Below are positions 6,973-27,349 of a stretch of DNA of 40,207 nucleotides, piece by piece. Source of the stretch: Bacteroidota bacterium (lineage in GTDB: Bacteria > Bacteroidota > Bacteroidia > Chitinophagales > Chitinophagaceae); NCBI GenBank assembly GCA_029558715.1, contig JAKQEA010000060.1, positions 1 to 40,207 of the forward strand. The letters are read 5' to 3'. Each line of letters begins with the position of its first letter. Position 1 is the stretch's first letter. Position numbers and translations under genes: made by a program. The notes under the pieces were generated by a model, which was given only the letters and a program-made list of their open reading frames with translations, was not told the DNA's origin and did no database searches.

Positions 6973-6989
6973 CGCAAACTTTTTCCATC

Positions 6990-7667: not shown

Positions 7668-7743
7668 ATTCACTGCCTTCAGCATTAAGCTTTTTTGTTT
7701 TAAGCCTTTACGTTTTGTCCTCTGCATTCAGCCTTATCCCTTG

Positions 7744-7751
7744 TACCTTCG
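7744..7751 (+). promoter_or_regulatory. Possible -7 box next to the kinase start codon
   Basis: TACCTTCG differs from the -7 consensus TAnnTTTG at one base and ends four bases before the ATG at 7756, which would give a leaderless or nearly leaderless transcript. The same TTCG variant appears at 35119-35126 upstream of the PhoU-like gene. Confidence 0.3.
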
Positions 7752-7755
7752 TATC

Positions 7756-11304: not shown

Positions 11305-12744
11305 TTATTTCGTCATAAACCTGGTAGCAATAGCCAGCGGCCGGAAAGTGTATCTCTTTTTTACATGATGCCCCCCGCTTCGTATCAGTATATCCCGGAG
11401 TGTTTCCATAGTTCGGATAATATGGGTGCCTTTATTGATCATTACACAATCTGCCAGTGCCGCATGTGCTGCATCAGTAATTTCTGAACGAGTGGCCACG
11501 CCTGATTTATTTAGGTTTTCCAATACCTGTGTCGCCCAGATAACAGGCACATGGGCAGCCTCACAGATCCAGAGTATCTCTTCCTGTATTTCGCTCATTC
11601 GTTCAAAACCAATTTCTACCGCCAGGTCTCCTCTTGCTATCATTACCCCGATATTTTCTTCCCGCATGCCGCAGAACAGAAGATCAGGAAGGTTTTTTAC
11701 TGCTTCCGGTGTCTCTATTTTAATGATTAGTGATACCCTCTTGTTTTTTCCCATTGCTTCCTGCAGCTGCAGTATGTCTTTTGTATTTCGCACAAAAGAA
11801 TATCCTACCATATCTGCATGTTTATTAATGAACGAAAGACATTTTATATCATAATCAGTGAGCGCAGGCATTAGTAATGACGAATCCGGAAAGTTGATAC
11901 CCTTCTCATTCTTTATAAAAGGCTTCTTTGAAGATATTCTCTGTACTTGTAATTTTACCCGGCCGGGTTCATTCTTTTCTACTCTCGCCTCAATTAATCC
12001 GTCATCAAACAGAACAATTTCTCCGGTATTCAATTGTTCGGAAATATCCGGAACAGTACATCCAACTGTCAATTTATCATCAGCTATATTGGCTTCATCA
12101 GCCAGGTAAATATGCTGCCCTTCCTCCACCTTTATTTTACCTTTCTCTTTTATTACTGTTCTGATCTTTGGTCCTGCCAAATCCATATAAATTTTACAAC
12201 TCAGCCCGGTGATCTTTGAGGCCCTTTTAATATGCTGTATCATCCTGAACCAGGTACTTTCATCATCATGGGCGCAATTTATTCGGGCCACATTCATTCC
12301 TGATTGCAAAAGGTTTTTTACTTTTCCATAATCATCGGCCAGGCTTTTGTCAAATGTTATCATGATATACGGAACCGCATCGGCTTGTTTCCTTCCAAAC
12401 AGATCAGCAGCTTTTTTTGCCAATGATTGCTTCCCTGTTTCGTAACTGAAAACATTTTCCGGAATTTCTCTTGTTGGTCCGATTCGTTGCGAAATGGCAA
12501 GCAACTGCCCCCTGATATGACTCTCGGAACTAGCCATAGAAGAAAGTCCATAGGCATGCAAACTATCCTGTAATTCTCTGATATCGAGACTACGAAGAGC
12601 CAGGTAATGCAGCAGATTAGTGGCACATAATTGATTGGCGGGATGTGCTTTTTCCAGCAGGTAATGAAAATCATTCTCAGTCCGCACCATAAACTCATCA
12701 ATCTTTTCCAACTCCTCGCCTAGCTTCACCAGTTTCTCGTTCAT
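11305..12744 (-). CDS. Pyruvate-kinase-like protein lacking the C-terminal domain
   Basis: The protein has the (beta/alpha)8 barrel of pyruvate kinase (residues ~125-455) with an inserted B domain (~195-275). Recognisable motifs are NVARINCAHD (151-160), DLAGPKIR (188-195), catalytic IKIET with Lys342 and Glu344, ARGDLAVEI with Asp373, and the TRSEITDAAHA helix (418-428). Two features differ from normal Pyk. About 120 N-terminal residues of helical, unrecognised sequence precede the barrel, and the C-terminal allosteric domain is absent. The usual VMLSGETA segment reads VMINKGTH. It may make pyruvate and ATP from PEP or act on a related substrate. Confidence 0.8.
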   Translation of the reverse strand: MNEKLVKLGEELEKIDEFMVRTENDFHYLLEKAHPANQLCATNLLHYLALRSLDIRELQDSLHAYGLSSMASSESHIRGQLLAISQRIGPTREIPENVFSYETGKQSLAKKAADLFGRKQADAVPYIMITFDKSLADDYGKVKNLLQSGMNVARINCAHDDESTWFRMIQHIKRASKITGLSCKIYMDLAGPKIRTVIKEKGKIKVEEGQHIYLADEANIADDKLTVGCTVPDISEQLNTGEIVLFDDGLIEARVEKNEPGRVKLQVQRISSKKPFIKNEKGINFPDSSLLMPALTDYDIKCLSFINKHADMVGYSFVRNTKDILQLQEAMGKNKRVSLIIKIETPEAVKNLPDLLFCGMREENIGVMIARGDLAVEIGFERMSEIQEEILWICEAAHVPVIWATQVLENLNKSGVATRSEITDAAHAALADCVMINKGTHIIRTMETLRDILIRSGGHHVKKRYTFRPLAIATRFMTK

Positions 12745-12830: not shown

Positions 12831-13925
12831 CTAATGCAGCGACACTGGTGATGTGGCAGTAATGCTAAAATCCTCACCGACAAGATGTGCAATCGTCTGC
12901 GCCATTTGCTGTAAATATTGTTGCTCATTACTTTTTATTTCTCCGGCTGGCTTTATACCCGGCCCGATTACAGCAAACCATGTTTGAGAAGATCCGCTGA
13001 TAAATTCACCATGGGCGGTCCAGTTGCTGGCCCTGCTTCCCCTTCCATGATCGGTAGTAATAATAAATGTGGTGTTATCTTTATATCCCGGTGTGGTTTG
13101 CACCCAATGCCATAATTCAGCGATCATCCTGTCCACCTGTGAAGCCTGCTGCAGATAGAGATCATATCTTCCTTCATGGGCAAACTCATCCGTTTCTCCT
13201 AATCCAAGATATAACACCCGTGGATTATGTTGTTGTAAATACTCTTTTGCTGTTAAGAAAGTAAGTTGATCATAACGGGTGGGCTTTTTATCATACACCA
13301 CTTCCTGCTGCATCCTATTAATAAGCTGTTGATAAGTTGTTCCTTCTTCCATATTCTCATAACCGCTGTTGACAGGCAGGTTGTTTCTCTTGGTGTTCAA
13401 TATGTAAGGAAACACATCCCAGGAGGAGAAAGCAGCTACTTTGCCTGCAAAAGAAGGGCGGCTGTCCAGGTATTCCAAAACATTTATATTAGGATTATTT
13501 CTTTTTTTATTGGACGAAATATAGATATCAGTATTCCCGGTAAATAACTCGTTATACCCGGGATAAGAAATAGAGTAAAGGTTAGCCACATCCACTTTAT
13601 TCTGATACCGGCGGTTCCCGAATACTTGTCCTTTTTGTGCTATAACATTCCAGAAAAAGGGCAGCAGTTTTTTTCGTCTTTCTTCCGGGTTTTCTGCCCA
13701 ATAAAGCATTTTGATTGTAGAAGTATCAGGAGTGTATTTTGATGAGTTGATAAGTGCGGGATCTGCCCCTGTAAATACTTCCTGCCAGCGAAAGCCATCA
13801 GTAGTAATGATAAAAAGATTGCCTGCAACAGGTAATGGTGCAGATAAGGCCTCTTTCTTTTCTTGTTCTTTATACACCGGTGGAAATAGCATCACCAGGA
13901 TGATGCAGGTCCAGATGTTTTTCAT
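12831..13925 (-). CDS. Secreted alkaline-phosphatase-superfamily hydrolase (copy 1)
   Basis: Probably hydrolyses a phosphate ester, pyrophosphate or phosphonate outside the inner membrane, using two metal ions. The 364-residue protein has a signal-like N-terminus (4-17). AlkP-fold ligands are Asp43 (DGFRWQ), a probable nucleophile Ser120 in SYPGYNE (the place of Thr in the TFPN motif of nucleotide pyrophosphatases), Asp246 and His250 (GETDEFAH), Asp292 and His293 (TDHGRG) and His305. It is clearly paralogous to 17791-18876. It lies 66 bases downstream of the FAD oxidoreductase gene but has its own promoter with four 11-bp repeats, so it may be induced separately. Confidence 0.85.
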   Translation of the reverse strand: MKNIWTCIILVMLFPPVYKEQEKKEALSAPLPVAGNLFIITTDGFRWQEVFTGADPALINSSKYTPDTSTIKMLYWAENPEERRKKLLPFFWNVIAQKGQVFGNRRYQNKVDVANLYSISYPGYNELFTGNTDIYISSNKKRNNPNINVLEYLDSRPSFAGKVAAFSSWDVFPYILNTKRNNLPVNSGYENMEEGTTYQQLINRMQQEVVYDKKPTRYDQLTFLTAKEYLQQHNPRVLYLGLGETDEFAHEGRYDLYLQQASQVDRMIAELWHWVQTTPGYKDNTTFIITTDHGRGSRASNWTAHGEFISGSSQTWFAVIGPGIKPAGEIKSNEQQYLQQMAQTIAHLVGEDFSITATSPVSLH

Positions 13926-13939
13926 ATGTAACGGTTTTG

Positions 13940-13995
13940 CAAAGCAAGCAAAACAGTGTAACCCATATATTACGTACAGGTTACCTTATTGTTAT
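13940..13995 (-). promoter_or_regulatory. Candidate Pho-box promoter of the AlkP-superfamily gene
   Basis: On the minus strand four 7-bp units repeat every 11 bp: ATAACAA (13989-13995), GTAACCT (13978-13984), GTAATAT (13967-13973) and GTTACAC (13956-13962). Exactly 8 bases later comes TTGCTTTG (13940-13947), one mismatch from the -7 consensus. The start codon is 14 bases further on. The most distal unit overlaps the stop codon of the FAD oxidoreductase gene. This is the same arrangement as before the TonB receptor gene. Confidence 0.6.
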
Positions 13996-15149
13996 AAAGA
14001 AGCCGCCGGTATAGTATTATGGATACCGGGCAATTCATTCACCAGCTTCTCACATAAACCAAAGGATAATGTCATACCGGCTCCACCCAATCCATTTATG
14101 ATAGTAACACCCTGTTCGGGCTGTAATACAATAGCGGCTTCTCCATTGGTAAGCTTGGGATAAATACCATTCCATGTTTCAATGATTGTATCATCTTTGA
14201 AACGGGCAAATCCTTGCAGGTAATCAAGGATCATATTATTGATAACCTGTTTGTCAAAAGGATCGGGAGTTAAACTGTACTCATGAGAATCACCAACTGT
14301 TAACTCACCGGCCTGGTTTTGTGAAGTCATTACATGTATTCCCCATTTCAGGTAGTCTGCATATTCGTATTCATATCTCACTTTCAGTTTAGCCAGAGAA
14401 GGAGCAACGGCAAAACTTTTATAATGTATCAACGATAAAGAACCACACAAGGCAGGACCAATGCGCCAGCTCTCAGGCTGGGCTGCCAGGCGCATCATTT
14501 GCAGTTTGCATTTAGTAAGCGGCAAAGTCCTGTATAGTTCAGGATAAAGAGTCTCAAAATCTGCTCCGCTGCAAACAAAGATCTGATCTGCTTTTAATTC
14601 CCTTTTCCCGGAATAAACAGTGGGATGAGCTATTCTCGTTACAGCTTTGTCCCATATAAAATCTACTCCATATTTTTCTTGCAGCCAGTTGGGTATTGCT
14701 GCAATAGCCTGGCGTGGATCCACGATCATTTCATCCGGACTCCATAAGGAGCCGATCAGGTTATCTGTTACTACGGCTTCCGATCGCTGCTTTGTTTCAG
14801 CAGGTGTTAACAGTTTACAACGGCGATCTCTTGAAATAGTGTCAATGAGCTCATTCATAACTTCCCACTCATCTGGAACATAAGCCATATGCAATGACCC
14901 CACTTCATCATACCAGATACCCGCATCCGCACATATTTCTTTCCAGATACTTCGTGATAACATCGCTGTTTCATATAGATTTCCTTCAGGTTGGCCCACC
15001 GGCCATACCATACCGAAATTCCGGATGGAAGCTCCGATAGCTTTACTACTTCTGTCAATAACAGTTACTTTATATCCACGAACGGCTAATGAACGGGCTG
15101 TCGCCAGGCCAACTATTCCTGCACCAACAACAATTGCTTTTTTATCCAT
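13992..15149 (-). CDS. DAO-type FAD-dependent oxidoreductase, phosphonate-locus type
   Basis: Cytoplasmic flavoenzyme of the D-amino-acid-oxidase superfamily, 385 residues. The N-terminus has the FAD-binding GAGIVG motif (9-14), and GASIRNFGMVW (39-49) follows. It resembles the family I know as TIGR03364, described as a neighbour of phosphonatase-like HAD enzymes, which is exactly its setting here. A reasonable role is oxidative deamination of 2-aminoethylphosphonate or its N-methyl form to phosphonoacetaldehyde, the substrate of the HAD enzyme encoded nearby. Substrate is inferred, not shown. Its start overlaps the end of the MFS gene by 8 bases, so the two are translationally coupled. Confidence 0.8.
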   Translation of the reverse strand: MDKKAIVVGAGIVGLATARSLAVRGYKVTVIDRSSKAIGASIRNFGMVWPVGQPEGNLYETAMLSRSIWKEICADAGIWYDEVGSLHMAYVPDEWEVMNELIDTISRDRRCKLLTPAETKQRSEAVVTDNLIGSLWSPDEMIVDPRQAIAAIPNWLQEKYGVDFIWDKAVTRIAHPTVYSGKRELKADQIFVCSGADFETLYPELYRTLPLTKCKLQMMRLAAQPESWRIGPALCGSLSLIHYKSFAVAPSLAKLKVRYEYEYADYLKWGIHVMTSQNQAGELTVGDSHEYSLTPDPFDKQVINNMILDYLQGFARFKDDTIIETWNGIYPKLTNGEAAIVLQPEQGVTIINGLGGAGMTLSFGLCEKLVNELPGIHNTIPAASL

Positions 15150-16437
15150 AATTTAAATAAGGATTTACTGGAGGAGAATACTGGTTATATTTTTTTTGAA
15201 AATAGGCTGCTGACAATGCCACCAGTATGATACCGGCCACGGATACGATCAATACCATTTTTATAAAAAATGTAGTCCAGGAAATATCGAGGCTGCTGAA
15301 GTTCTTTACCAGCAATATCCCATTACTACCCAGGTAACCAAATGAATCTGCTACATAAATAATAAAGCCGGCATTACTCACATATCTGAAACTGGCTATC
15401 AGTCTTTCAAACAACATGCAATTAAAAGGAACATAACCCATGTATAAACCAACTCCGGTTAGTGTCATCCACCAGAAAGGCGACAGGTTATCCTCCATAA
15501 ATAGCAGGCTGCTTATTATAGCAATGAAAAATCCTGCGATAATAACTATATGATTTATCAGCAATGCATGGATGTTCTTTTTAACCAGTACAAGCAAACC
15601 CATTAAGATCAGTACCACTAATGATGCCGGTAATTCACTTTGGGTAAATACAGCCGCATTCTTACTGTATCCTAATTCACTCCACATATTAGAAGCAAAA
15701 TTGCTGCGATAATCCCTGATAACAGTAAGCATCACATACGCTGCAATAAGCAGTACCAGGCCTGGAAAAAATGTTTTAATAAAGTCTTTCCGGCGTTTCT
15801 TCGACATTGGTTCCCGTTGTGTACGGAGGATTATGTCTTTTTTATCAGGCGCAGGTGTTTTGTCAAGCAACCAGGTAAACAATACGAGGGGTGGAAAAAA
15901 CAACAACCCGGTGATCCAGGGCATCCACCATTCACTCACCTGCCACTGCAGCATCACAAATTTGCCCACACTCTGTGTAAACCCCGACGCAAATATGAAA
16001 CTGGCAGATAATACTGCTCCCAAAAACTCAGTGGTTCGTCTGCCTTCAAGATAACTGAAAACCAACCCATAAATAACTCCCAGTGGAAATCCATTAATGA
16101 GAAGAAAAATAATATTATATGGTGCAGGAAAAAGCGCAAAGAATAATAAAGCAATCCAGCCGATCGCAATCAGTTTTAAAATTGCCGGTGCTCTTTTTTC
16201 ATTGTTCATTGCACCAATAAAACTGATACCAAAAAACTTACTGGCAGTGTATCCTATAGTTTGTGCTATCACCAGCCAGATTTTGTAATCAACGCCCCAT
16301 AGCTCTTGTTCCTTAAAATCAGCTGCCGTAAAAGGTTTACGAAAAGCATACATACAGGTGTAGACACAAAAGGCCGAAAGGGCCGCCAGCAAGGTGGTTT
16401 TCCACTCCTTTTTCCGAAAAAGATGTAGTGGCGGCAT
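15142..16437 (-). CDS. MFS transporter (DUF5690-like) of the phosphonate locus
   Basis: Inner-membrane transporter of 431 residues with about 12 hydrophobic segments. The N-terminal helix contains CMYAFRKPFTAA, reminiscent of the organophosphate:phosphate antiporters (GlpT/UhpT group), which keep an Arg at this place for anion binding. I recall the family as DUF5690. Wedged between the HAD gene (zero spacing) and the FAD oxidoreductase gene (8-base overlap), it most likely imports the phosphonate or organophosphate released in the periplasm. The exact substrate is inference. Confidence 0.8.
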   Translation of the reverse strand: MPPLHLFRKKEWKTTLLAALSAFCVYTCMYAFRKPFTAADFKEQELWGVDYKIWLVIAQTIGYTASKFFGISFIGAMNNEKRAPAILKLIAIGWIALLFFALFPAPYNIIFLLINGFPLGVIYGLVFSYLEGRRTTEFLGAVLSASFIFASGFTQSVGKFVMLQWQVSEWWMPWITGLLFFPPLVLFTWLLDKTPAPDKKDIILRTQREPMSKKRRKDFIKTFFPGLVLLIAAYVMLTVIRDYRSNFASNMWSELGYSKNAAVFTQSELPASLVVLILMGLLVLVKKNIHALLINHIVIIAGFFIAIISSLLFMEDNLSPFWWMTLTGVGLYMGYVPFNCMLFERLIASFRYVSNAGFIIYVADSFGYLGSNGILLVKNFSSLDISWTTFFIKMVLIVSVAGIILVALSAAYFQKKYNQYSPPVNPYLNYG

Positions 16438-17112
16438 TTACTGAAGAATGGCGGGCAATTCACTGAGATGATGTAATATATGGGTCGGATTCAGTTCTTC
16501 GAGATCAGCCTGTGCAAAGGCTCCTGTAGTAACGCCTATTACATATTTACAACCAGCATTTTTCCCTTCCTCAATGTCAACAGCTGTATCTCCTATTTTA
16601 ATCACTTCTCCCGCATCACTTACCCCGGCTCTTTTCATCAGTTCACTGATCATATAAACATAAGGCCTTCCTTTCTCTACTTCATTGCTTCCTATATAAT
16701 CATCCACTAAGCCTTTGTCTTTCCATGCAAACCGGTTCACAATCGCATCCGCAATCTCCCTGGAAAATCCTGTATTAAGTGCTATACGTATCCCTTTTTC
16801 TTTCAGTGCTAAAAATGCTTCCTCTGCTCCGGGCATTGGCATCACCTCAGGGTCATACTCATAAAAATCGATCATCTCACTTTCAAAATCAGCATGTATT
16901 TCTTCAATCAGTTCCGCATCCGGATCTATTTCCAGTTTCTCCAGCATCATTTGAATAGCCAGTGGCTTATGATACCCCATTAAAGGAATTGTTTCTTCCT
17001 CAGTAATCTCCATACCATGAGCAGCAAAGGCATTTTTAAAAGCATTTGCTACAAAATTTTTATCTGTTACAGTTGTTCCTGCTATATCGAAAACGGCAAG
17101 TCTGATTGACAT
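16438..17112 (-). CDS. Phosphonatase-like HAD hydrolase
   Basis: Cytoplasmic HAD enzyme, 224 residues, close to phosphonoacetaldehyde hydrolase (PhnX), which splits the C-P bond to give acetaldehyde and phosphate. The nucleophile motif is DIAGTT (9-14), the DxAGT form typical of phosphonatases instead of DxDxT. GRPYVYM (an Arg where most HADs have Lys) and the acidic motif GDTAVDIEEG follow. In the cap, MGYHK places Lys49 five residues into the motif, where PhnX (MGLLK) has its Schiff-base lysine. It matches the phosphonatase-like group I know as TIGR03351. It directly abuts the MFS gene. Phosphonoacetaldehyde as substrate is likely but not proven. Confidence 0.85.
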   Translation of the reverse strand: MSIRLAVFDIAGTTVTDKNFVANAFKNAFAAHGMEITEEETIPLMGYHKPLAIQMMLEKLEIDPDAELIEEIHADFESEMIDFYEYDPEVMPMPGAEEAFLALKEKGIRIALNTGFSREIADAIVNRFAWKDKGLVDDYIGSNEVEKGRPYVYMISELMKRAGVSDAGEVIKIGDTAVDIEEGKNAGCKYVIGVTTGAFAQADLEELNPTHILHHLSELPAILQ

Positions 17113-17179
17113 ATAATTATATTTAAGGAAAGGTAGAGTGAAGGAACAGCAACACTGTTAAGCCAGCATGAACAAAATT

Positions 17180-17764
17180 TTAAATCTGTGCTTCAAGATG
17201 ATGTACCATCATTACCCGGTATTTTTCAAGGGAAGGCAATGGTTGTGCTGTTAATTTAGCTGCATCATCCCAGCGGCGTACCTGAATATGTAAGGCCAAT
17301 AATGGATTTACTTCAAATGCTTCCGCTTCTGCAGCTGTCATAACCCCTCCCTGGAATTCCAGTGTTTTTTTACTGGCTGGCGAAAGTTGATCATAGTATT
17401 CCGGGTATCGGTAAGTAAGGTATCGTTTGGCCTGCACATGGTTTTCTACCAGGCTGGCAATAGTTTCAGAAAAACCTTTACTACGTAAAAAGTCAGCTCC
17501 CATTTTCTCATGATCCACAACACCATAACCGTCCATTTGTTTTGTGTCCGTTATATGCTCACACAAATGGCCTATATCATGAAAAAAAGCTCCCAGGATC
17601 ACTTCTTCATCATATCCTTCCTTTTCAGCAAGCTCTGCCGACTGGCACATATGTTCTAGTTGCGATACCGGCTCACCAATATAATTCTCACTTCCATATT
17701 GCCGGTAAAGTTCAATAACAAATTCAGCTGTTATTTCAGGGTTTCTCTTTGTTGTTTGCTTCAT
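17180..17764 (-). CDS. PhnZ-like HD-domain oxygenase (phosphonate-associated HDIG protein)
   Basis: Cytoplasmic HD-domain protein, 194 residues. Metal ligands of a mixed-valent diiron HD oxygenase are visible: His38, His62-Asp63, the additional His85 and His109, and Asp166 or Asp167. The motif YIGEPVSQLEH contains Tyr28 and Glu31, spaced as the Tyr24/Glu27 pair that closes on substrate in PhnZ. PhnZ and TmpB cleave the C-P bond of 1-hydroxyphosphonates with O2. The family is annotated as associated with phosphonate degradation operons (TIGR03276, from memory). No PhnY/TmpA-type Fe/2-oxoglutarate hydroxylase is present in the window to make the hydroxylated substrate. It lies 67 bases before the HAD gene. 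Confidence 0.85.
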   Translation of the reverse strand: MKQTTKRNPEITAEFVIELYRQYGSENYIGEPVSQLEHMCQSAELAEKEGYDEEVILGAFFHDIGHLCEHITDTKQMDGYGVVDHEKMGADFLRSKGFSETIASLVENHVQAKRYLTYRYPEYYDQLSPASKKTLEFQGGVMTAAEAEAFEVNPLLALHIQVRRWDDAAKLTAQPLPSLEKYRVMMVHHLEAQI

Positions 17765-17790
17765 TGTCGCATACGATATTTCTATATTTT

Positions 17791-18876
17791 TTACTTAGAG
17801 CCTAATACAAGCGCCTGCATAACTGGGTGTGTAGGTTTAAATTCTTTTCCGAGTATTAAAGCGATGGTAGCAGCTATCTGGCCCTGGAATGCCTGCATCT
17901 TTTCTTTACTTTCCCCTGTTGCTTTTACAGATGGACCAATGGCTGCCATCCACATTTCACTAGCTTCTGATATTTTACTCCCATGTTGTTTCCAATTTCC
18001 TTCAATTGCCAATCCTCTGCCATGATCCGTAGTAATGATAAGTGTGGTCTTATCCTTATAGCCAGGTGTAGATTGAATATATTCCCATATCATTCTTATC
18101 CAGGCATCTGCTTTTTGAGCCGCATCCAGGTAATAATCATATTTACCTGCATGGGCAAATTCATCTGTGTCACCCAGTCCAAAAAAAATGAGTTTGGGTT
18201 TATTGGCTTTCATGTATTCAAAAGCAATATTAAAAGTAGCCGCATCCAGTCTTTCACCTCCGTGAAAAAGATCAGGCATCTCATGCTGAAGTTTATTAAG
18301 CATTTTCTGTTTTTCCGTTAATTGGCCATTCAAATCTCTGAATCCGTCATTTACAAATAAACCTGAACGGGCTTCATTAAAAATGGAAGAAAATACATCC
18401 CATGAGCCGAACACGGCTATTCTGCCTTTGAATTCGGCCATTTTATTCAGATATTCAAATACATTTTCATTTGGATTAGGGATTTTCTTGTTCGAATTAA
18501 CTGCTGTGTCCGGGTATCCGGTAAAAATTTCATTATAACCCGGGTAAGAAAACCAGTAAGGATTGGCATTATTGAAATAATTACCATAATTCCTGTTACC
18601 GAGCAATACTCCCTTTTTGGAAATCTCAGTCCAGAAAAAAGGCATCAGCAACATTCTTCTTTCTGCCACATCAGGCAGCCAGAATTTTTTTTGTATGTAT
18701 TTATAACTATAGTCAGCTGTTGTATCAAAGCTTAGCAAACTGTCTGCTCCCTGAAAAACTTCCTGCCATCTCAAACCATCCATTGTTACCACAACAATAT
18801 TCTCTGATTTTTTACCCTGCGTAAATGCAGAAAGTACTGAACAACTCACTAATAATAACGATAAAACTCTTTTCAT
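17791..18876 (-). CDS. Secreted alkaline-phosphatase-superfamily hydrolase (copy 2)
   Basis: A 361-residue paralogue of the enzyme at 12831-13925, with a clear signal peptide (2-19, cleavage near AFTQ). The same AlkP-fold residues are kept: Asp33 (DGLRWQ), Ser110 in SYPGYNE as the probable nucleophile, Asp238 and His242 (DTDEFAH), Asp284 and His285 (TDHGRG) and His298. Periplasmic phosphomonoesterase, phosphodiesterase or phosphonoacetate-hydrolase activity is possible. It lies 11 bases after the MBL gene and 26 bases before the HD gene, so it sits inside the operon, unlike copy 1. Confidence 0.85.
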   Translation of the reverse strand: MKRVLSLLLVSCSVLSAFTQGKKSENIVVVTMDGLRWQEVFQGADSLLSFDTTADYSYKYIQKKFWLPDVAERRMLLMPFFWTEISKKGVLLGNRNYGNYFNNANPYWFSYPGYNEIFTGYPDTAVNSNKKIPNPNENVFEYLNKMAEFKGRIAVFGSWDVFSSIFNEARSGLFVNDGFRDLNGQLTEKQKMLNKLQHEMPDLFHGGERLDAATFNIAFEYMKANKPKLIFFGLGDTDEFAHAGKYDYYLDAAQKADAWIRMIWEYIQSTPGYKDKTTLIITTDHGRGLAIEGNWKQHGSKISEASEMWMAAIGPSVKATGESKEKMQAFQGQIAATIALILGKEFKPTHPVMQALVLGSK

Positions 18877-18887
18877 AATTTTTTTTA

Positions 18888-20192
18888 TTATTTGTTTGCA
18901 ACAGAAATATATGGTCCAAAAGTTTTTTTGATCATGATACCGGGTCGTGAATCATCCAGAACTATTATATAATAAGATGCACCGCCGGGTAATACCCTGA
19001 CAAGGATATGTCCCTGCTGGCTTTTGTACGAACGATCGATCAGCGGACCAATAACTAGTTTATTGGCTTCAAGCATATTCGTAGCAAAGAGATCTCTTTG
19101 CCCGCTGACAATATGCTGATTCATAATTCTTAAAAGTACTTCGTGCCCGGGATGGTCGGCTGACCATGTCTGGCCGATCCATACCGCGGGTCTTAAAGTT
19201 TTTATCATAAACTCATTCACGGCATCACGGTTGCCATGATGATCCATAGTAGCTACATCCACTTTTCCAACTGCCCTCGCAATTGGTGTCCCGACATCCC
19301 TGAGGGGATTATCTCCTGTAAATATATTTCCAGGATTATCACCTCCGGTGTAATAAGTAAAGGACCCGTAGTTGATTGTAAGCGCAAGGCTCAGGCTATT
19401 TTCATCAGGCCATGTTTTACGATCATCCATATCTGGTTCAGGAAAATGAGATATAACAGATGAATCTTTCCCGGTCCATATCCATTGGTTGGCTTTAACA
19501 TTTCTAACAAAAAATCCGGGAAAAGAAACAGTATCGTTCAATAGTATAATTTGTCTCTTACTTCCGGCTGCCAGTGATACGACCCGCATTCCTTTTTGTC
19601 GCTTCTCATTAATAAAAGCAAAATAGTTTCTCATTGTATTTCCAAACTCAATCTCTCCCCCTCCATAGTTATTTGCAAATTTTTTTATATCATACGGATA
19701 ATTATACAAAGGAAATCCACGGTCAATCAATTTTCCTATGGCTAAAACATCTCCGATGCCAGTTATACCTGTTCGCAGAAAATTACCGGAAGTGGAAACC
19801 GGTGCATCGGGATACCAGGCACCAAAATGATCATCATGAAAATGAGTGATCAGTGCATAGTCAATACTATTCTTGTTGTTTTCCGGCGAAACCTGTTTTA
19901 TGTAGCTTACAATCCATTCGTAGGGCTTCCTTGAAGAATCCGGAGTAATAGTAGCATTTCTTTTTGTAAAAGTCCTGTCGTCAAGAGGAGATAGTTCTCC
20001 GGCATCTATCAGCAATGTGGTACCATCCGGAAAGATGCAATAGGCAGTATTACCTCTTCCGGTATTAATATGATGTATATCAAGAAAGCCTTTCTCCCAG
20101 GGTTTCAATATCTTCTCTGTATCTGTTGATTGAGAAAAAAATTGTATTGAATACAAAAGGAGGGTATATAATAAAAAGCTGCCTTTGCTCAT
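18888..20192 (-). CDS. Secreted metallo-beta-lactamase-fold hydrolase
   Basis: Zinc-dependent hydrolase of 434 residues with a signal peptide (about 5-22). The fold is shown by TTLLIDAGE (58-66) and by THFHDDH, giving ligands His117, His119, Asp121 and His122. A later Asp (TGGDNPG) and His (MDHHGNRDAVN) complete the site. The opening strand layout resembles the ComEC-type MBL group. The reaction cannot be read. As the third gene after susC and susD, a role in cutting a phosphodiester or similar bond of the imported compound is plausible (inference). Confidence 0.8.
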   Translation of the reverse strand: MSKGSFLLYTLLLYSIQFFSQSTDTEKILKPWEKGFLDIHHINTGRGNTAYCIFPDGTTLLIDAGELSPLDDRTFTKRNATITPDSSRKPYEWIVSYIKQVSPENNKNSIDYALITHFHDDHFGAWYPDAPVSTSGNFLRTGITGIGDVLAIGKLIDRGFPLYNYPYDIKKFANNYGGGEIEFGNTMRNYFAFINEKRQKGMRVVSLAAGSKRQIILLNDTVSFPGFFVRNVKANQWIWTGKDSSVISHFPEPDMDDRKTWPDENSLSLALTINYGSFTYYTGGDNPGNIFTGDNPLRDVGTPIARAVGKVDVATMDHHGNRDAVNEFMIKTLRPAVWIGQTWSADHPGHEVLLRIMNQHIVSGQRDLFATNMLEANKLVIGPLIDRSYKSQQGHILVRVLPGGASYYIIVLDDSRPGIMIKKTFGPYISVANK

Positions 20193-20218
20193 TAGTGGTA
20201 AGTTTTTTTAAAAAGGGC

Positions 20219-20226
20219 GAAACCTA
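20219..20226 (-). promoter_or_regulatory. Possible -7 box upstream of the MBL gene
   Basis: Minus-strand TAGGTTTC is one mismatch from TAnnTTTG, 26 bases before the MBL start codon. The surrounding 117-base gap after susD also holds a weak stem (GGCG pairing with CGCC, 16-base loop) followed by a run of T, which could act as an attenuator. Both signals are weak. Confidence 0.25.
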
Positions 20227-20309
20227 GAAAAGTCCCGCCTTTGTTTACGCTTACTGATGCTCTGCTTGCATGAGAAAACTGCTGCTATTTGCTATTTTAT
20301 ACTGCCGTC

Positions 20310-21833
20310 TTATTGGGCAATCCAAGGCCTTGTATTCAGGTCGTCTACACCCTGCCGCTGTACTGCCGCTTCCCTGTTAGCCCCGTTTAATGATTGCTCT
20401 GACAAAGGATAAATATATCTAACAGGTACTTTGTTATTGTTTAGATTAGCTGGTCCCGGAACAATTACAGGCATTCCTGTTCTTCTCCAGTCAAACCAGG
20501 CTTCAAGCCCGTTAAAGTATAAAGCGATCCATTTTTGCAAAGCGATCTTAGCCAATCTTTCTTCGTTAGTGCCGGCATATTCAACATCTGCCTGGGTAAG
20601 ATAACCTGCAGGCATTGATATATTGAGGTTATATGCAGCCGGCACTACTGATTGCCAGTAGGCAAAGTTTGCATTAATACCATTGGTGTAATATACAGCT
20701 GCATCACCACTGCTGATCATTCCTTTCTGGCGGGCTTCTGCCAAAATGAATTGTAACTCAGCATAGGTCATCAGCAATGCCCTTGGCGCATCAGCCGCAG
20801 GAGGTGCCTGGCCAGCATCATTACAAACAAGACAGGCAAACGTATAACCTACTCTTGATACACCCTGCACACCACCATTAAATGCCAGTGCATCCACATC
20901 GCTAAGACCATTGGGCACCCCTTGTATTACGGGTGTACCTGCGGCAACAGATGCCTGGGTAGGTCTTCCGAAAACTTTTAACCTTGGATCACCTAACGCA
21001 GACAAACGATCAGTCAGTGTTTTACTAACCCTGAACTCATCAAAAGAACCTACCCTGCTTCCATATAATGGCCATTGGTTTGGAGCTGCTGATAAATACT
21101 TTAACTCTGCATTATCTCCATTACCGGTGAAAACAGGATTGCTGACAGGATCAGCTATAATGGCCTGCATCTCGGTATTCACATTTTTCTTTTTGGACAG
21201 GCGCATCAGGTAACGGAGACGAAGTGAATTAGCCAGCTTCCTCCATTTTACAAGTGAAGCAGCTCCGCCACCATAGATAATATCGCCGCTGAAAGTTCCA
21301 TTTGCAGTAGCCAGTACTTCATTAGCTTTTTTCAGATCAGCAAGTATCCCGGTATAAATATCTTCCTGCTTATCATACACAGGCTGATAGATTCCATCGG
21401 TCTTGGCTTTTCCCGCTTCAGAATAAGGCACATCACCATACGCATCTGTAACGAGGGAGAACATCCATGATTTGAGAATCAGCGCTACACCATAATAAGG
21501 ATTCGCCTGGTTACCATCAACAGCGGTAAAAATATTTTGCAGGTTGCGGTAATTACCATACACATTGCTCCACAGGCCATTTTGTTCATTCCAGCCATAC
21601 CTGTCTTCATTTACAAACTGTATTTTGGCATGATGCTGAACAACGATATTACCAATACCCCATGCTTCACTTACTTGCCTGTCCAGCGTACTTTTCAATA
21701 TACCACTTAAAAGCAAATCAGGTGTTACACTGGTAGGATTATTCAGGTTTGTATTAGTATCTGCAAAATCCTTTGTACATCCGGCAATAAGCACAAAAGC
21801 AAATACCGGTACTATTATTTTTGACAGTTTCAT
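20310..21833 (-). CDS. SusD/RagB-family outer-membrane lipoprotein
   Basis: Surface lipoprotein of 507 residues that forms the lid on the SusC channel and binds the substrate. A lipobox ends at Cys19 (LIAGC). The helical body has TPR-like segments and typical SusD stretches such as SWMFSLVTDAYGDVPYSEA and EARQKGMISSGD. It looks closest to the SusD-like_2 group. It follows susC by 24 bases. Because the downstream genes encode phosphonate and phosphatase enzymes rather than glycoside hydrolases, the ligand is probably an organophosphorus compound (inference). Confidence 0.9.
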   Translation of the reverse strand: MKLSKIIVPVFAFVLIAGCTKDFADTNTNLNNPTSVTPDLLLSGILKSTLDRQVSEAWGIGNIVVQHHAKIQFVNEDRYGWNEQNGLWSNVYGNYRNLQNIFTAVDGNQANPYYGVALILKSWMFSLVTDAYGDVPYSEAGKAKTDGIYQPVYDKQEDIYTGILADLKKANEVLATANGTFSGDIIYGGGAASLVKWRKLANSLRLRYLMRLSKKKNVNTEMQAIIADPVSNPVFTGNGDNAELKYLSAAPNQWPLYGSRVGSFDEFRVSKTLTDRLSALGDPRLKVFGRPTQASVAAGTPVIQGVPNGLSDVDALAFNGGVQGVSRVGYTFACLVCNDAGQAPPAADAPRALLMTYAELQFILAEARQKGMISSGDAAVYYTNGINANFAYWQSVVPAAYNLNISMPAGYLTQADVEYAGTNEERLAKIALQKWIALYFNGLEAWFDWRRTGMPVIVPGPANLNNNKVPVRYIYPLSEQSLNGANREAAVQRQGVDDLNTRPWIAQ

Positions 21834-21857
21834 TGATTGTGTTTTTTAAATGAAAGA

Positions 21858-24800
21858 TTAGAGTTTGAAACTGAGATTTACACCATAACTGCGGGTAGAA
21901 GGTAAACTCATGTATTCAATACCGGGCAGCGCTGTACCACCGGTGTAAGACATTGTTTCAGGATCTATATGAGGCACCTTATCCCAAAGGAACAGGTTAC
22001 GACCCACCAGGCTGATAGTAACTCCTCTTACCGGCAGCTTACCAAACAGTTTATCAGGTATGGTATATCCAATCTGCAGTTCCCGGAGTTTGATGAATGA
22101 AGCATCATACATGACTCCTTCAGCAATACTCCGGCCACCAGTCCATGCTGTATGCCATTCACGAGCGGTTACTTTTTTATTATTAGGACTGAAACTTCCA
22201 TCAGTATTTTGAACAACACCCTGCCCTATCACTCCATTTCCTTCCAGTGAAAGATCATATCCGTTGGCACGGCCTTCCAGTGTTTCAGTGATAATGCCAC
22301 CTTCACGACCCACTGTTTGAGTTTCAGAATATAATTCACCACCCTGGCGGATATCAAAAAGAAAACTCAGTCGGATTCCTTTATAATTTACACTGTTGCC
22401 AATTCCCATCAACCAGTCAGGATTATAATTTCCAAGTTTTATGCGTTCAGTAGTTCTGATTGGGCGGCCGTTTGAGCCAAATACCATCTGTCCGTTATAC
22501 TTACCGGAAGCATCATAGTACTTACCGGATGGATCATTACTCTGTACTCTTGCAAAACCAATTCCATATAAATCTCCCATTCTTTCACCTACTCTTGCTT
22601 CCACACTTACCCGGCGGCTGGCCATTACATAATTCATTAACCCATCACTCAGTTCAAGCACTTCACTTCTGTTGGCAGAGAAATTTACAAATGCATCCCA
22701 GACAAAACTTCTTTTCTTAACCGGTGAACCAGTGAGCATAACCTCAATACCATTATTTTTTATTAAACCGGCATTGATCTTACGGGTATCGTACCCGCTG
22801 GTACCAGACAATGGGATGTTTAGTATCTGGTTTTTAGTACGGCTCTGGTAATATGTTATATCAATACCAAGACGACTATTGAATAACCTTACATCAGCCC
22901 CAAACTCATAGGCAGAACTGATTTCAGGTTTCAGGTTTAGATTAGCAAGACTGTTTGTTTCCCCATAGATTTGATAAGCTCCAAATGGTTCACTCCGGTT
23001 ATAGGTTTGGGTAAAGGCAAACGGATCGGTATCATTACCCACTTGTGCAAGGCTGGCTCTAAGTTTAAAGAAGCTGATTGCTTTTGGCATTTTTATAATA
23101 TCACTCATAATAGCACTGAGCGCAACAGAAGAATAGAAATAAGAATTTTCCTCACTTCCAAAAGCCTTCAGGTTTTCAGGAAGTGTAAGGGCACTACTCC
23201 AGTCATTTCTGCCTGTAAAATCCAGGAATAATTTATTCTTATAAGATACTCCTGCTGTACCATACAAGCTGTTAATTCTTTTCGCCACATTGCTTTGTTC
23301 CACTACTAATGCGATACGGGAATTGTTCAGGCTGTAAATACCAGGTATATTCAGTTGGCCTGCTACATCTTCTTTAAAACGGGAAGTTTGACGCATCTGG
23401 TTGCCACCAAACGTTGCGCTGACAGCAAAGTCATCATTAATATTCTTATTTCCTGAAAAAAGAAAATCAGTATTTCGTTCTTCATTCACAATAGCTGTCT
23501 CTCTGTATTGACCAAAGGGAAAACGCTGTGTACTGAATCCACGGCGATACTCACGGCGTTCATTACTCCAGTCAGTAGCAGTTCGAACCTGTAAATTCAG
23601 CCACTTGGTGAATTCATACCGGAGAATAATATTGCCAATGATGCGGTCATAATATTGGCCGTTGGTATTTTCTAATACGGTTAGGTACGGATTATCATGA
23701 TAATTATAATTCCAGCTGTATTGTTTTTGATTCTCAAGCCCCGGCTGCCATAATCTTTTCATATCACTTACCTTAACGGAGGCTGGTAACCAACAGTTGA
23801 AAAGATACATGATACTTTCTGTTCCGTAGCTTATTGAAGGACGATTGTCACTTTCACTCTTTATATATGATACAAATGCCTTTGCTGATAACCGGCTGGT
23901 CAGGTTATATCCGCCGGAAACAGAAATGGTATTTCTCGTAAGATCAGTATTGGGTACAATACCTTTCTGATCTATATTAGTGTAACTGAGACGAAAATCC
24001 CCATCCTTGTTACCTCCTACCAGTGCTACATTGTTGGTGAATGTATTGCCGGTCTGCAAAAAATTCTTCAGATTGTCTTTATCGGCCACCCACGGAGTAG
24101 AAGTAATTATACTGCCCGCTGGAGCATTCATATCGCCACCTGTAAAAGGTATTACCTGCCCGTTCAATGTTCTCGGTGAATTATATTGCGGATAACTCTG
24201 ACCGTTAAATGCAGGTCCCCAGCCTTCATCTGTTCCGTCAGCTAATCCGCTTCCTGCGCCATTTACAAAAGCAAAAGCTCCACCGCTACCATTGCCCTGG
24301 CCATAAACAGTTTGATACTCGGGTAATTTTAAGGCGGTTTCAAAAGTGAGATTACTGTTCACTTCCACACCGATACCTTTTTGTTTTTTTCCACTCTTTG
24401 TTTTTATCAGGATCACACCGTTAGCAGCTCTTGATCCGTATAATGCGGAGGCTGCCGGTCCTTTCAGCACACTCATGCTTTCAATATCATCAGGATTGAT
24501 AAAGCTGGCGCCATTACCAAAATCTACTTCCAGGTTTCCACGGCCGGATGCACCAGTAATAGAATTACTTACCGGTACACCATCGATTACATATAAAGGT
24601 TGATTCTTATTCAGATCAACTGATCTTTCGCCCCGTATGGAAACCCGGGCAGAACCCCCCACCCCGGAAGGGCTGCCAACTACTGTAACACCGGCTACTT
24701 TTCCGGCCAACTGGTTCACCACATTTGTTTCCCTTGCAATGGTTAGATCATCACCTTTAATTTCCTGGATGGCATATCCTAATCTTTTTTTCTCTTTCCT

Positions 24801-25145
24801 GATACCAAGGGCAGTAACCACCACTTCACTCAGATCACGGGACTCAGGTTGCAGCGTTATGGAGGAAGCTCCGGAAGCTTTAACCTCCGCACTGGTAAAT
24901 CCGATATTGCTTATCAATAATATATCATCCTCATTTGCTTCAATGTTAAAAAATCCTTCCGGATCTGTTGTGGTGATTTTACCACTACTCTTTACAATGA
25001 TAGTAGCACCGGCAAGGGGTTGCATATTTTCACCGGATAATATTTTTCCTTTTACGGCCCGCTGCGCCATTGCAAACAATGACACCGTAAAAAGGAGAAT
25101 CAAAAAAAGGGTTTTTTTAATTGCGGAATTAACGAATGCTGCCAT
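21858..25145 (-). CDS. SusC/RagA-family TonB-dependent outer-membrane transporter
   Basis: Energised outer-membrane importer of 1095 residues. A signal peptide (to about Ala27, AMA-Q) is followed by a carboxypeptidase-regulatory-like domain (30-100), a TonB-box-like segment DLSEVVVTAL (104-113), the plug and a 22-strand-type barrel ending in an aromatic-poor but typical YGVNLSFKL. It is the first gene of the nine-gene minus-strand run, and a SusD partner follows directly. No ECF sigma/anti-sigma pair lies beside it. Instead the upstream region has two 11-bp-spaced half-sites and a -7 box, which suggests control by the PhoB-like regulator. Confidence 0.95.
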   Translation of the reverse strand: MAAFVNSAIKKTLFLILLFTVSLFAMAQRAVKGKILSGENMQPLAGATIIVKSSGKITTTDPEGFFNIEANEDDILLISNIGFTSAEVKASGASSITLQPESRDLSEVVVTALGIRKEKKRLGYAIQEIKGDDLTIARETNVVNQLAGKVAGVTVVGSPSGVGGSARVSIRGERSVDLNKNQPLYVIDGVPVSNSITGASGRGNLEVDFGNGASFINPDDIESMSVLKGPAASALYGSRAANGVILIKTKSGKKQKGIGVEVNSNLTFETALKLPEYQTVYGQGNGSGGAFAFVNGAGSGLADGTDEGWGPAFNGQSYPQYNSPRTLNGQVIPFTGGDMNAPAGSIITSTPWVADKDNLKNFLQTGNTFTNNVALVGGNKDGDFRLSYTNIDQKGIVPNTDLTRNTISVSGGYNLTSRLSAKAFVSYIKSESDNRPSISYGTESIMYLFNCWLPASVKVSDMKRLWQPGLENQKQYSWNYNYHDNPYLTVLENTNGQYYDRIIGNIILRYEFTKWLNLQVRTATDWSNERREYRRGFSTQRFPFGQYRETAIVNEERNTDFLFSGNKNINDDFAVSATFGGNQMRQTSRFKEDVAGQLNIPGIYSLNNSRIALVVEQSNVAKRINSLYGTAGVSYKNKLFLDFTGRNDWSSALTLPENLKAFGSEENSYFYSSVALSAIMSDIIKMPKAISFFKLRASLAQVGNDTDPFAFTQTYNRSEPFGAYQIYGETNSLANLNLKPEISSAYEFGADVRLFNSRLGIDITYYQSRTKNQILNIPLSGTSGYDTRKINAGLIKNNGIEVMLTGSPVKKRSFVWDAFVNFSANRSEVLELSDGLMNYVMASRRVSVEARVGERMGDLYGIGFARVQSNDPSGKYYDASGKYNGQMVFGSNGRPIRTTERIKLGNYNPDWLMGIGNSVNYKGIRLSFLFDIRQGGELYSETQTVGREGGIITETLEGRANGYDLSLEGNGVIGQGVVQNTDGSFSPNNKKVTAREWHTAWTGGRSIAEGVMYDASFIKLRELQIGYTIPDKLFGKLPVRGVTISLVGRNLFLWDKVPHIDPETMSYTGGTALPGIEYMSLPSTRSYGVNLSFKL

Positions 25146-25469: not shown

Positions 25470-26312
25470 TTGAAAAAAAGAAATCTTGACGTTGCCGTCA
25501 TTTCAGATCTGCATCTTGGCACCTATGGCTGCCATGCAAAAGAAATTATCAATTACCTGCAAAGTATTTCGCCCCGTCTTCTAGTTCTGAATGGCGATAT
25601 AATTGATGGATGGCAGTTCAGCAAACGGTACTTCCCCCCATCACACCTACAGGTAATAAAAGAGATCATGAATCTTCTTGATAATGGCACAAGAGTAGTA
25701 TACATCACGGGCAATCATGATGAGATGCTTCGCCGCTACAGCGGCATTCAGCTAAGCAATTTTCAGTTGGCAGACAAACTGGTAGTGGAGATCAACGGAA
25801 AAATGACATGGATATTCCACGGTGATGTATTTGACAACACCACCAAAGGCAGCGCCAAGATCATTGCCAAGCTGGGAGGGTTTGGTTATGACTGGCTGAT
25901 ACTCTGCAACCGGTTTATCAACTGGTGGCTGAAAAAATTGGGCCGGCCAAAAATGAGTTTCAGCAAGAAAATAAAAAACAGTGTAAAGAAAGCCGTGAGC
26001 TGGATCGCAGATTTTGAACAAACAGCAGCAGAACTGGCCATTGAAAAAGGATATGATTATGTTATCTGCGGTCATATACACCAGCCGCAAAAGAAATTAA
26101 TAGAAACAAAAAATGGGGCTGTAACCTATTTAAATAGCGGCGACTGGATCGAAAACCTCACTTCGCTTGAGTTCGCAAATAATGAATGGACTATCTATCA
26201 CTATGATGAAAAAGAATTTGCAGGGGCCAATGTGATACCAATGAATAAAAAGATTCCGGCCCTGAGTGTGGTTACAGATGAGATCGGTCTCTTTATTAAT
26301 TCGCTTCAGTAA
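25470..26312 (+). CDS. LpxH-like UDP-2,3-diacylglucosamine diphosphatase family metallophosphoesterase
   Basis: Calcineurin-like two-metal phosphoesterase, 280 residues. Motifs in order are DLHLG (13-17), GDIIDGW (42-48), TGNHDE, HGDVFD and GHIHQP. Family members include LpxH, which makes lipid X in lipid A synthesis, but this group is often broader, and the adjoining glycosyltransferase suggests a role in a membrane glycolipid. The start is a TTG at 25470, giving MKKRNLDVAVISDLHLG. No ATG exists upstream in frame, and the family usually begins just here. It is followed 11 bases later by the glycosyltransferase gene. Confidence 0.85.
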   Translation: MKKRNLDVAVISDLHLGTYGCHAKEIINYLQSISPRLLVLNGDIIDGWQFSKRYFPPSHLQVIKEIMNLLDNGTRVVYITGNHDEMLRRYSGIQLSNFQLADKLVVEINGKMTWIFHGDVFDNTTKGSAKIIAKLGGFGYDWLILCNRFINWWLKKLGRPKMSFSKKIKNSVKKAVSWIADFEQTAAELAIEKGYDYVICGHIHQPQKKLIETKNGAVTYLNSGDWIENLTSLEFANNEWTIYHYDEKEFAGANVIPMNKKIPALSVVTDEIGLFINSLQ

Positions 26313-26323
26313 TAAAATACAAA

Positions 26324-27349
26324 ATGAAAATACTCTATGCAGTCCAGGCTACCGGTAATGGGCATATCAGCCGGGCAATGACCTTACTCCCGTACTTGCA
26401 GGAATATGGAATGGTTGACATTTTTCTAAGCGGAGATAACAGTAATCTTCAACTGGATGCCCCGGTAAAATACCGCAGCAAAGGCATCAGCCTTTATTAT
26501 AATTGTAAAGGCGGGCTTGATTACTGGCAGATGATTAAGAAAATCCAACCATTAAGAGTAAAACAAGAGATCCGGGATCTGCCGGTAGAAAAATATGATC
26601 TCATTCTGAATGACTTTGATTACATCACATCAGCAGCCTGTGCCCGAAAAAAGATACCCTCTGTTCATTTTGGCCACCAGGCAAGCTTCCAGTCGCCGCA
26701 TACTCCCCGGCCCGGTAAAAGGAGTATTACCGGTGAGTACCTGCTTAAACAATACATAAAAGCAACATATCATACAGGGCTGCATTTTGAAAGTTATGAT
26801 GACTTTATATTTGGCCCGGTTATAAAAAATGAAATACTGTCTGCAGAACCATCAAGTGGTAATCATATTACTGTTTACCTTCCTTCTTACTGCGAACCAC
26901 AGCTGAAATCAATTTTTCAGACTTTCCCTGGTATTCAGTTTGAAATTTTCTCAAAAGAAACAAAGGCATTAAGAAAAGAAAAAAATATAAGCTTTATTCC
27001 AGTTGACAAATCACTCTTTAATAAAAGCCTTATTTCCTGCACCGGTATTATCTGCGGTGCCGGCTTTGAAACTCCTGCCGAAGCATTACAGCTTGGCAAA
27101 AAGATAATGGCCATCCCCATTGTGGGACAATATGAGCAGGAATGTAATAGTGCCGCCCTTGCAAAACTGGGTGTTACCTGCCTGCCAACAATTGATAAAA
27201 ATTTCGCTTCCCATTTGAATAACTGGATGGAAAGTTCATTTGTTATTAAAAAAGACTATTCTAATAGTATCGGCCAATCCCTTGACTATGTCTTTTCCCT
27301 TCCCCTTTCACACCAGGAAGAAGAAATACTGGTGAAAGAAATTTATTAA
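26324..27349 (+). CDS. Glycosyltransferase, GT-B fold (MurG/Glyco_tran_28-like)
   Basis: A 341-residue protein that probably transfers a sugar from a nucleotide donor to a lipid or other acceptor at the inner membrane. The N-terminus MKILYAVQATGNGHISRA has the GxGH loop of the MurG-like group. The C-terminal half has GIICGAGFETPAEALQ, the donor-binding GGxGT/S-xxEAL-like segment, and PIVGQYEQ, where related enzymes bind the nucleotide sugar. It lies 11 bases after the LpxH-like gene and probably forms a two-gene operon with it. Confidence 0.8.
   Translation: MKILYAVQATGNGHISRAMTLLPYLQEYGMVDIFLSGDNSNLQLDAPVKYRSKGISLYYNCKGGLDYWQMIKKIQPLRVKQEIRDLPVEKYDLILNDFDYITSAACARKKIPSVHFGHQASFQSPHTPRPGKRSITGEYLLKQYIKATYHTGLHFESYDDFIFGPVIKNEILSAEPSSGNHITVYLPSYCEPQLKSIFQTFPGIQFEIFSKETKALRKEKNISFIPVDKSLFNKSLISCTGIICGAGFETPAEALQLGKKIMAIPIVGQYEQECNSAALAKLGVTCLPTIDKNFASHLNNWMESSFVIKKDYSNSIGQSLDYVFSLPLSHQEEEILVKEIY

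Follow-up and report, generated by a model that had tools for sequence, protein, structure and literature searches.

What does a SusC/SusD-type uptake pair import when its neighbors are phosphohydrolases and phosphonate-type enzymes? The question is raised by a stretch of 40,207 nucleotides from a Bacteroidota bacterium (Chitinophagaceae; assembly GCA_029558715.1, contig JAKQEA010000060.1, positions 1–40,207), here called the window, by which we mean the whole stretch. Within it, nine minus-strand open reading frames (ORFs) occupy positions 12831–25145, with intergenic gaps of 0–117 bases and a single 8-base overlap. In the direction of transcription these encode SusC, SusD, a metallo-β-lactamase (MBL)-fold protein, an alkaline phosphatase (AlkP)-superfamily enzyme (AlkP1), an HD-domain oxygenase (HD), a haloacid dehalogenase (HAD)-type hydrolase, a DUF5690 membrane protein, a FAD-dependent oxidoreductase (FAD), and a second AlkP-superfamily enzyme (AlkP2). 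Judging from gene families and their conservation, we consider it likely that they constitute an aminophosphonate utilization locus, leading from SusCD capture through to phosphate release. The locus is probably dedicated to aminophosphonates in esterified form, and lipid- or glycan-bound 2-aminoethylphosphonate (AEP) is our best guess for the substrate. A preliminary description of the window had proposed a phosphonate role for these nine same-strand genes, all of which are present over that span; its interpretation gains support at the pathway level from the PhnWYA replacement in two sister loci and from PhoBR-like and Pit neighbors, as described below.

The Predicted Phosphonate Enzymes of the Locus

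The FAD protein (13992–15149) scores above the family cut-off of TIGR03364 (437.9 versus 285.1 bits), which bears out its earlier description as a DAO-type oxidoreductase of a phosphonate-linked family. Passages of PMC10590968, which characterizes PbfC and PbfD enzymes with activity known for PbfD1 and PbfD2, place in this family PbfD1 from A. baumannii, which oxidizes N-methyl-AEP (M1AEP) and AEP to phosphonoacetaldehyde. The PbfD-type flavoenzyme of the locus would carry out the same conversion of AEP or N-methyl-AEP in the cytoplasm.

The HAD hydrolase (16438–17112) has TIGR03351 as its best NCBIfam match (211.9 bits, cut-off 218.9) and aligns with PhnX structures (2iof, 4.4e-20), its Lys49 falling on PhnX Lys53; the deposited 2ioh sequence has an arginine at that position. 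Asp9 and Lys49 are kept in 103/103 relatives and Ala11 in 99/103. A DxAGT nucleophile motif and a cap Schiff-base lysine, Lys53 in the PhnX numbering, are features of PhnX-like HADs. The residue aligned with the functional cap residue His56 of PhnX is alanine in 95/103 relatives, and an assignment as PhnX proper was rejected (TIGR01422, 122.8 bits versus an equivalog cut-off of 220). The enzyme would cleave the C–P bond of phosphonoacetaldehyde, or of a close analogue, phosphonoacetaldehyde giving acetaldehyde and phosphate.

TIGR03276 is the best NCBIfam match of the HD protein (17180–17764; 213.8 bits, cut-off 214.6), which aligns over most of its length with PhnZ (4mlm, 2.8e-44) and TmpB (6npa, 6.6e-33) from the Protein Data Bank (PDB). 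His38, His62, Asp63, His85, His109, Asp166, Tyr28, Glu31, and Lys113 are kept in 128/128 relatives; from the computed alignment to PhnZ, we take these to correspond to the diiron ligands and substrate residues of that enzyme. The HD protein is predicted to cleave a 1-hydroxylated aminophosphonate directly. Residue counts refer to length-filtered sets (128 of 129 HD, 103 of 105 HAD, and 70 of 73 AlkP sequences), in which some genomes are duplicated, once unnamed and once labeled. The PhnZ-like HD and phosphonatase-like HAD of the preliminary description hold as best family matches, each marginally below the curated threshold.

Replacement of HAD and FAD by PhnWYA

The strongest evidence for HAD and FAD acting at the level of AEP and phosphonoacetaldehyde is that PhnW, PhnY, and PhnA replace them in sister loci. 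In one such locus (L063, genome G088) PhnA, PhnY, PhnW, and a second FAD oxidoreductase are encoded between HD and DUF5690, with PhnA (TIGR02335, 496 versus 408 bits), PhnY (TIGR03250, 665 versus 636), and PhnW (TIGR02326, 485 versus 401) above curated cut-offs; searches of G088 found neither a HAD (threshold 1e-40) nor a TIGR03364 gene (threshold 1e-60). The same four genes, 65–83% identical (75–83% for PhnA, PhnY, and PhnW), occur in a second genome (L065, G195). Both loci retain SusCD, AlkP, HD, and DUF5690, with PhnA, PhnY, and PhnW standing in for HAD and PbfD. A third genome (G119; L057, L100) has SusCD, HD, FAD, and DUF5690 without HAD, together with a separate PhnA-PhnY-DUF5690-PhnW cluster whose PhnA, PhnY, and PhnW proteins are 72–78% identical to those of L063. 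The PhnWX and PhnWYA pathways are described in passages of PMC12366243, which also note phnY-phnA in Bacteroidetes.

Conservation across the Order and Phylum

We surveyed 248 genomes of the order; these are related and their contigs are often short, so the statistics are indicative only. HD was found in 52 genomes, reduced to 51 by dropping a weak partial match (G060), and scores exceed the TIGR03276 cut-off in 23 genomes and that of TIGR03351 in 13. Pairwise co-occurrence of HD, DUF5690, FAD, and HAD gave Fisher p values of 4e-18 to 2e-41, in a count that excluded seven short or weak HD matches and one weak DUF5690 match. DUF5690 is present in 51/51 HD genomes, HAD in 48/51, and HAD in 57/61 FAD genomes; a candidate phosphonoacetaldehyde-consuming route is found in 51/51 HD genomes (HAD in 48, PhnY plus PhnA in 3). 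In 25/52 HD loci, DUF5690, FAD, and HAD all lie no more than 15 kb from HD. Gene maps were drawn for the window and for 51 further HD loci; among those from the family of the window, SusD accompanies 21/22 HD loci and the full HD-HAD-DUF5690-FAD set 18/22, the usual order being SusC-SusD-(AlkP or others)-HD-HAD-DUF5690-FAD.

A scan of labeled genomes with a 17-sequence HD alignment extended the comparison; from 480 confirmed loci the best 80 were taken (hereafter labeled loci), with genes named by BLAST best match to our own clusters and not by profile score. Seventy-nine carry labels that are Bacteroidota by name, including Chitinophagaceae, Mucilaginibacter, Algoriphagus, and Hymenobacter, and many are metagenome-assembled genomes. 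The remaining one (L182) is an HD relative in a Gammaproteobacteria-labeled metagenome-assembled genome without other labeled locus genes, which may reflect transfer or mislabeling. Three loci (L131, L159, L179) gave no HD ORF, leaving 77 for counting. Within eight ORFs of HD, DUF5690 occurs in 68, FAD in 67, SusC in 64, HAD in 62, SusD in 59, AlkP in 42, an XRE-cupin regulator in 40, PhoR in 10, PhoB in 8, and MBL in 6. SusD is found anywhere in the retrieved stretch in 60 of the 80, and 49 of those 60 have the full HD-HAD-FAD-DUF5690 set. Two labeled loci (L129, L130) match the gene order of the window from the glycosyltransferase (26324) to an ABC transporter (2674), except that both lack the genes for AlkP2, a pyruvate kinase-like protein, and one PHO4 transporter (9065–11296). 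The gene set recurs in other Bacteroidota, the conservation that the preliminary description had proposed to check.

Next to HAD in two labeled loci (L153, L158) lies a zinc-dependent alcohol dehydrogenase (PF00107), perhaps acting on the acetaldehyde formed; BLAST relatives of it occur in 6 of the 60 SusD-bearing loci.

The SusCD Pair

The SusC/RagA-type TonB-dependent outer-membrane transporter (21858–25145) scores 635.3 bits against TIGR04056 (cut-off 368.25) and is also above the TIGR04057 cut-off, and the SusD-like surface lipoprotein (20310–21833) scores 336.4 bits against PF12771, in agreement with the importer proposed earlier. When 26 SusDs from such loci were aligned, at least 90% of them had Cys19, and the 25 others are 27–84% identical to that of the window; this spread, together with mixed profile neighbors, rules out a single dedicated SusD clade. 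With a SusD profile built from the phosphonate loci themselves and six candidates scored per genome, 24/28 top matches have HD, DUF5690, FAD, or HAD within 15 kb and 4/28 lie away from them; below these ranks, none of the following 8 and 3 of the 14 after those are near phosphonate genes. Among 72 hand-chosen DUF5690 loci, SusD is present in 31/49 with a phosphonate enzyme versus 0/23 without, although two of the latter (L093, L104) carry a SusC-like ORF. The pair is predicted to capture and import an aminophosphonate, most likely in esterified form, such as a phosphonolipid headgroup or AEP on a glycan.

Predicted Periplasmic Hydrolases

The MBL protein (18888–20192) had been described as a secreted MBL hydrolase. 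Its HFHDDH motif is invariant in 7/7 sequences and its model, of low confidence (predicted local distance difference test score, pLDDT, 59.6), fits MBL structures; however, no Pfam family is matched above its cut-off, PF00753 being found below threshold (E = 0.004). In the PDB the best match of the family profile is Pce (1wra), weak at E = 0.0012, and Foldseek ranks ComEC (9ic4) first and Pce (2bib) second, which with this model is a lead only. Of the five other genomes with MBL, two (G113, G212) place it beside DUF5690 and HAD genes. The protein may be an accessory phosphodiesterase.

AlkP1 (17791–18876; PF01676, 29.4 bits) and AlkP2 (12831–13925; PF01676, 34.6 bits), 44% identical in alignment, show weak Metalloenzyme, Sulfatase, and Phosphodiest matches in Pfam, consistent with the two AlkP-superfamily hydrolases recognized previously. 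Searched singly against the PDB, neither gave a match at E 0.1; the family profile gave weak ones, the best being ENPP5 (0.006). The AlkP1 model (pLDDT 94.4) has among its first 50 Foldseek neighbors LtaP/LtaS, nucleotide pyrophosphatases, ENPP6, and phosphonate monoester hydrolase, at 11–16% identity. Metal and serine positions Asp33, Ser110, Asp238, His242, Asp284, His285, and His298 are kept in 70/70 relatives. Hydrophobic N termini of MBL and AlkP1, judged by eye, suggest that the hydrolases are secreted. Phosphodiesterase-like AlkP1 and AlkP2 and the Pce-like MBL would then cut the ester in the periplasm to give AEP-type phosphonates: a hydrolase acting on a phosphonate can cut the O–P ester only, and so the aminophosphonate would be set free.

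A phosphohydrolase gene is present anywhere in the retrieved stretch in 59 of the 60 SusD-bearing labeled loci, most often AlkP (43), followed by PF04185-type enzymes (18), glycerophosphodiester phosphodiesterase (GDPD; 16), full phospholipase C (14; PF04185 plus PF05506 in L164), and others in smaller numbers, among which are MBL, purple-acid/calcineurin-type, and PF01663-type enzymes. By analogy, phospholipase C and GDPD may point to lipids and Pce to glycans as carriers of the phosphonate.

DUF5690, a Candidate Inner-Membrane Transporter

The carrier gene (15142–16437) had been assigned to the major facilitator superfamily, an assignment that we could not confirm: Pfam gives PF18943 (DUF5690) alone, at 560.7 bits, and the DUF5690 profile matched no PDB chain. 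A plain hydropathy count gives nine hydrophobic segments. DUF5690 was not named in the open-access literature searched. The protein is a candidate importer that would move AEP-type phosphonates across the inner membrane.

Phosphate Neighborhood and Genomic Context

On the plus strand at 6864–8805 lie a PhoB-like response regulator (best match TIGR02154, 227 bits, below the cut-off of 296.2) and a PhoR/PnpS-like kinase (best match NF046044, 244.8 bits, below 400); similar neighbors recur in other loci, L129, L130, and L146 among them. The window also contains a PHO4 (Pit) transporter gene (9065–11296) and PhoU_div and PHO4 genes (35178–37075). The neighboring PhoBR-like regulators would probably induce the locus under phosphate shortage. 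Simple patterns for a Pho-box upstream of susC gave no repeat and no Bacteroidota-type promoter match in the window. The XRE-cupin regulator (HTH_3 plus Cupin_2, weakly PuuR-like; L031, positions 986–1567) lies near 40 of the 77 labeled loci; it was rejected as a regulator here, a search of the window's own genome at 1e-5, run without a positive control, giving no match.

That genome (235 contigs, listed completeness 100) gave no PhnJ match, with a positive E. coli control, no PepM match, in a search where no control genome exceeded the cut-off, and no PhnW above the cut-off (best 37.7 versus 360.8 bits). C–P lyase and phosphonate biosynthesis were set aside as candidates on the first two results, and because none of the three exceeds its threshold the locus would be the visible C–P-cleaving route of this genome.

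Several other genes flank the nine. On the same strand, 86 bases past AlkP2, lies a pyruvate kinase-like gene (11305–12744), in which Pfam detects the barrel domain only and NF011314 scores 540 bits against a cut-off of 642; a 479-residue ORF also follows AlkP2 in L128, the closest labeled relative among the matches listed. Divergent from the locus (25470–27349, plus strand) are a calcineurin-type phosphoesterase and a glycosyltransferase, the latter the lone one found with Pfam (26324–27349) and outside the nine-gene set. The pair, near the locus in 8 of the 77 labeled loci, recalls the PlcP/glycosyltransferase lipid-remodeling genes in the F. johnsoniae phosphate-depletion table, in passages of PMC8115612. 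Neither Pfam nor NCBIfam gave a match for a 752-residue protein (4498–6756, minus strand), whose relatives lie close to phoB-like genes in 7 of the 77 labeled loci.

Alternative Functions

Several observations weigh against an aminophosphonate locus as set out above. HD and HAD both fall marginally under their curated cut-offs, and no PhnY*-type hydroxylase is among the nine genes, so the HD substrate would arrive hydroxylated or be a different compound. In other families of the order SusD accompanies only 5/30 HD loci and the full set 7/30; MBL is rare (6/248 genomes); and PhnY and PhnA were located in the fetched stretches, a narrower scope than all 248 genomes. The fold neighbors of AlkP1 also include sulfatases, transferases, YejM, and MCR-1, in the same identity range, and since phosphodiesterases, sulfatases, and transferases are mixed among them the fold alone does not tell which reaction is catalyzed. 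For DUF5690, HD, FAD, and HAD are all missing from the surrounding 15 kb at 30/93 places, and 7 of the 23 loci without a phosphonate enzyme (L086, L092, L095, L096, L097, L098, L114) have phoB/phoR-like genes; because such phosphonate-free loci sit with these genes, DUF5690 may carry another (organo)phosphorus compound. Finally, a SusCD-AlkP module (L215) and a SusCD-phospholipase C-phospholipase C-TonB receptor module (L218) have no phosphonate enzyme in 20 kb, and because of these the outer SusCD-hydrolase half may serve phosphodiesters generally.

Taken further, this last point becomes a different function, a general phosphodiester (phospholipid headgroup) utilization system of PusCD type, in which the phosphonate enzymes would be a cytoplasmic add-on for minor products. 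Beyond the L215 and L218 modules, it could draw on the phospholipase C, GDPD, and calcineurin-type enzymes of related loci and on the PusCD systems with phosphodiesterases published in PMC8115612, to judge from passages of that paper. We nevertheless regard it as unlikely: most loci in the window's family have the C–P enzymes on the same strand as SusCD and in a shared order, SusD is absent from all 23 DUF5690 loci without a phosphonate enzyme (L093 and L104 having the SusC-like ORF), and the best SusD matches cluster near phosphonate genes, with a profile built from such loci.

The departures of HAD from PhnX, both in TIGR01422 score and at the His56 position, would also fit a pathway for 1-hydroxy-AEP and its analogues, in which FAD makes hydroxy-phosphonoacetaldehyde and HAD cleaves that compound and not phosphonoacetaldehyde. 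In its favor, HD enzymes of this group take 1-hydroxy substrates. The replacement enzymes PhnY and PhnA, however, process plain phosphonoacetaldehyde (passages of PMC12366243), and both AEP and M1AEP are substrates of PbfD enzymes (passages of PMC10590968), which makes such a pathway improbable, slightly more so than the phosphodiester system. A glycan utilization locus with unusual sulfatase-like enzymes and phosphonate genes by chance, to which SusCD, the Sulfatase matches of the AlkP proteins, and the sulfatases among the AlkP1 fold neighbors might point, is very improbable and was rejected, given that a Pfam scan of the 29 window proteins found no glycoside hydrolase or polysaccharide lyase (as the preliminary description had claimed for glycosidases), that the gene set recurs in strong association with phosphonate genes, and that the neighborhood is one of phosphate genes.

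The aminophosphonate locus remains our preferred interpretation, and it may be one case of a wider design. In this broader proposal, which we advance tentatively and hold slightly less probable than its opposite, Bacteroidota would share a phylum-wide modular phosphonate locus comprising SusCD; interchangeable periplasmic esterases (AlkP, Pce-like MBL, phospholipase C, GDPD, or calcineurin type); DUF5690 as a new importer family; two phosphonoacetaldehyde branches, PbfD with PhnX-like HAD or PhnWYA; and PhoBR or XRE-cupin control according to lineage, with lipid- or glycan-bound aminophosphonates as substrate.

Comparison with Known Systems

The preliminary description held SusCD systems to be normally tied to glycans, yet SusCD pairs for phosphorus have precedent: passages of PMC8115612 describe Flavobacterium "PusCD" complexes that adjoin phosphonate-degrading enzymes, with phosphate-dependent expression shown. 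Like those phosphate utilization systems, the locus combines a SusCD-like pair with phosphohydrolases instead of carbohydrate-active enzymes, the co-localization by which membership of such systems is recognized. It differs in the defined HD-HAD-DUF5690-PbfD set found in several families; phosphate-dependent expression is reported, in those passages, for Flavobacterium only. A PbfD-type oxidase feeding a phosphonatase without PhnW is shared with the PbfD2/PhnX AEP-oxidase pathway of Mariniblastus fucicola (passages of PMC10590968, which place its enzymes mostly in proteobacteria, with some representatives of the Planctomycetes-Verrucomicrobia-Chlamydiae group); in contrast to that pathway, the HAD here is PhnX-like, and the locus additionally encodes SusCD, an HD oxygenase, and putative esterases of the periplasm.

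The Pce (CbpE) teichoic acid phosphorylcholine esterase, as best PDB profile match and second Foldseek match of MBL, would suggest by analogy the removal of a phosphorylcholine-like group. The likeness is limited by the modest E value, the low-confidence model, and the higher fold rank of ComEC, and Pce comes from a different host with a different domain set. The locus has an HD oxygenase of the family found in the PhnY*-PhnZ and TmpA-TmpB pathways, with its ligand positions aligned to theirs. It differs from both in having no hydroxylase partner among its nine genes, and the HD protein was rejected as a TmpB or PhnZ1 equivalog (NF049941 and NF052439, 148.3 and 122.5 bits versus a cut-off of 300).

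An open-access literature search found no work joining SusD with phosphonoacetaldehyde. The idea and its parts are partly known; to these we add a modular locus that recurs, its PhnWYA variant, the association with DUF5690, and the Pce-like MBL. A SusCD pair is commonly annotated as a glycan importer, and a recurrent pair linked to C–P bond cleavage would change the annotation of unassigned "polysaccharide utilization loci." The findings provide a testable role for DUF5690, for one AlkP family, and for HD, HAD, and FAD families in Bacteroidota, and strain-labeled carriers in Mucilaginibacter, Algoriphagus, and Sediminibacterium make the proposal directly testable. They also suggest that phosphonate bound to polymers or lipids serves as a nutrient.

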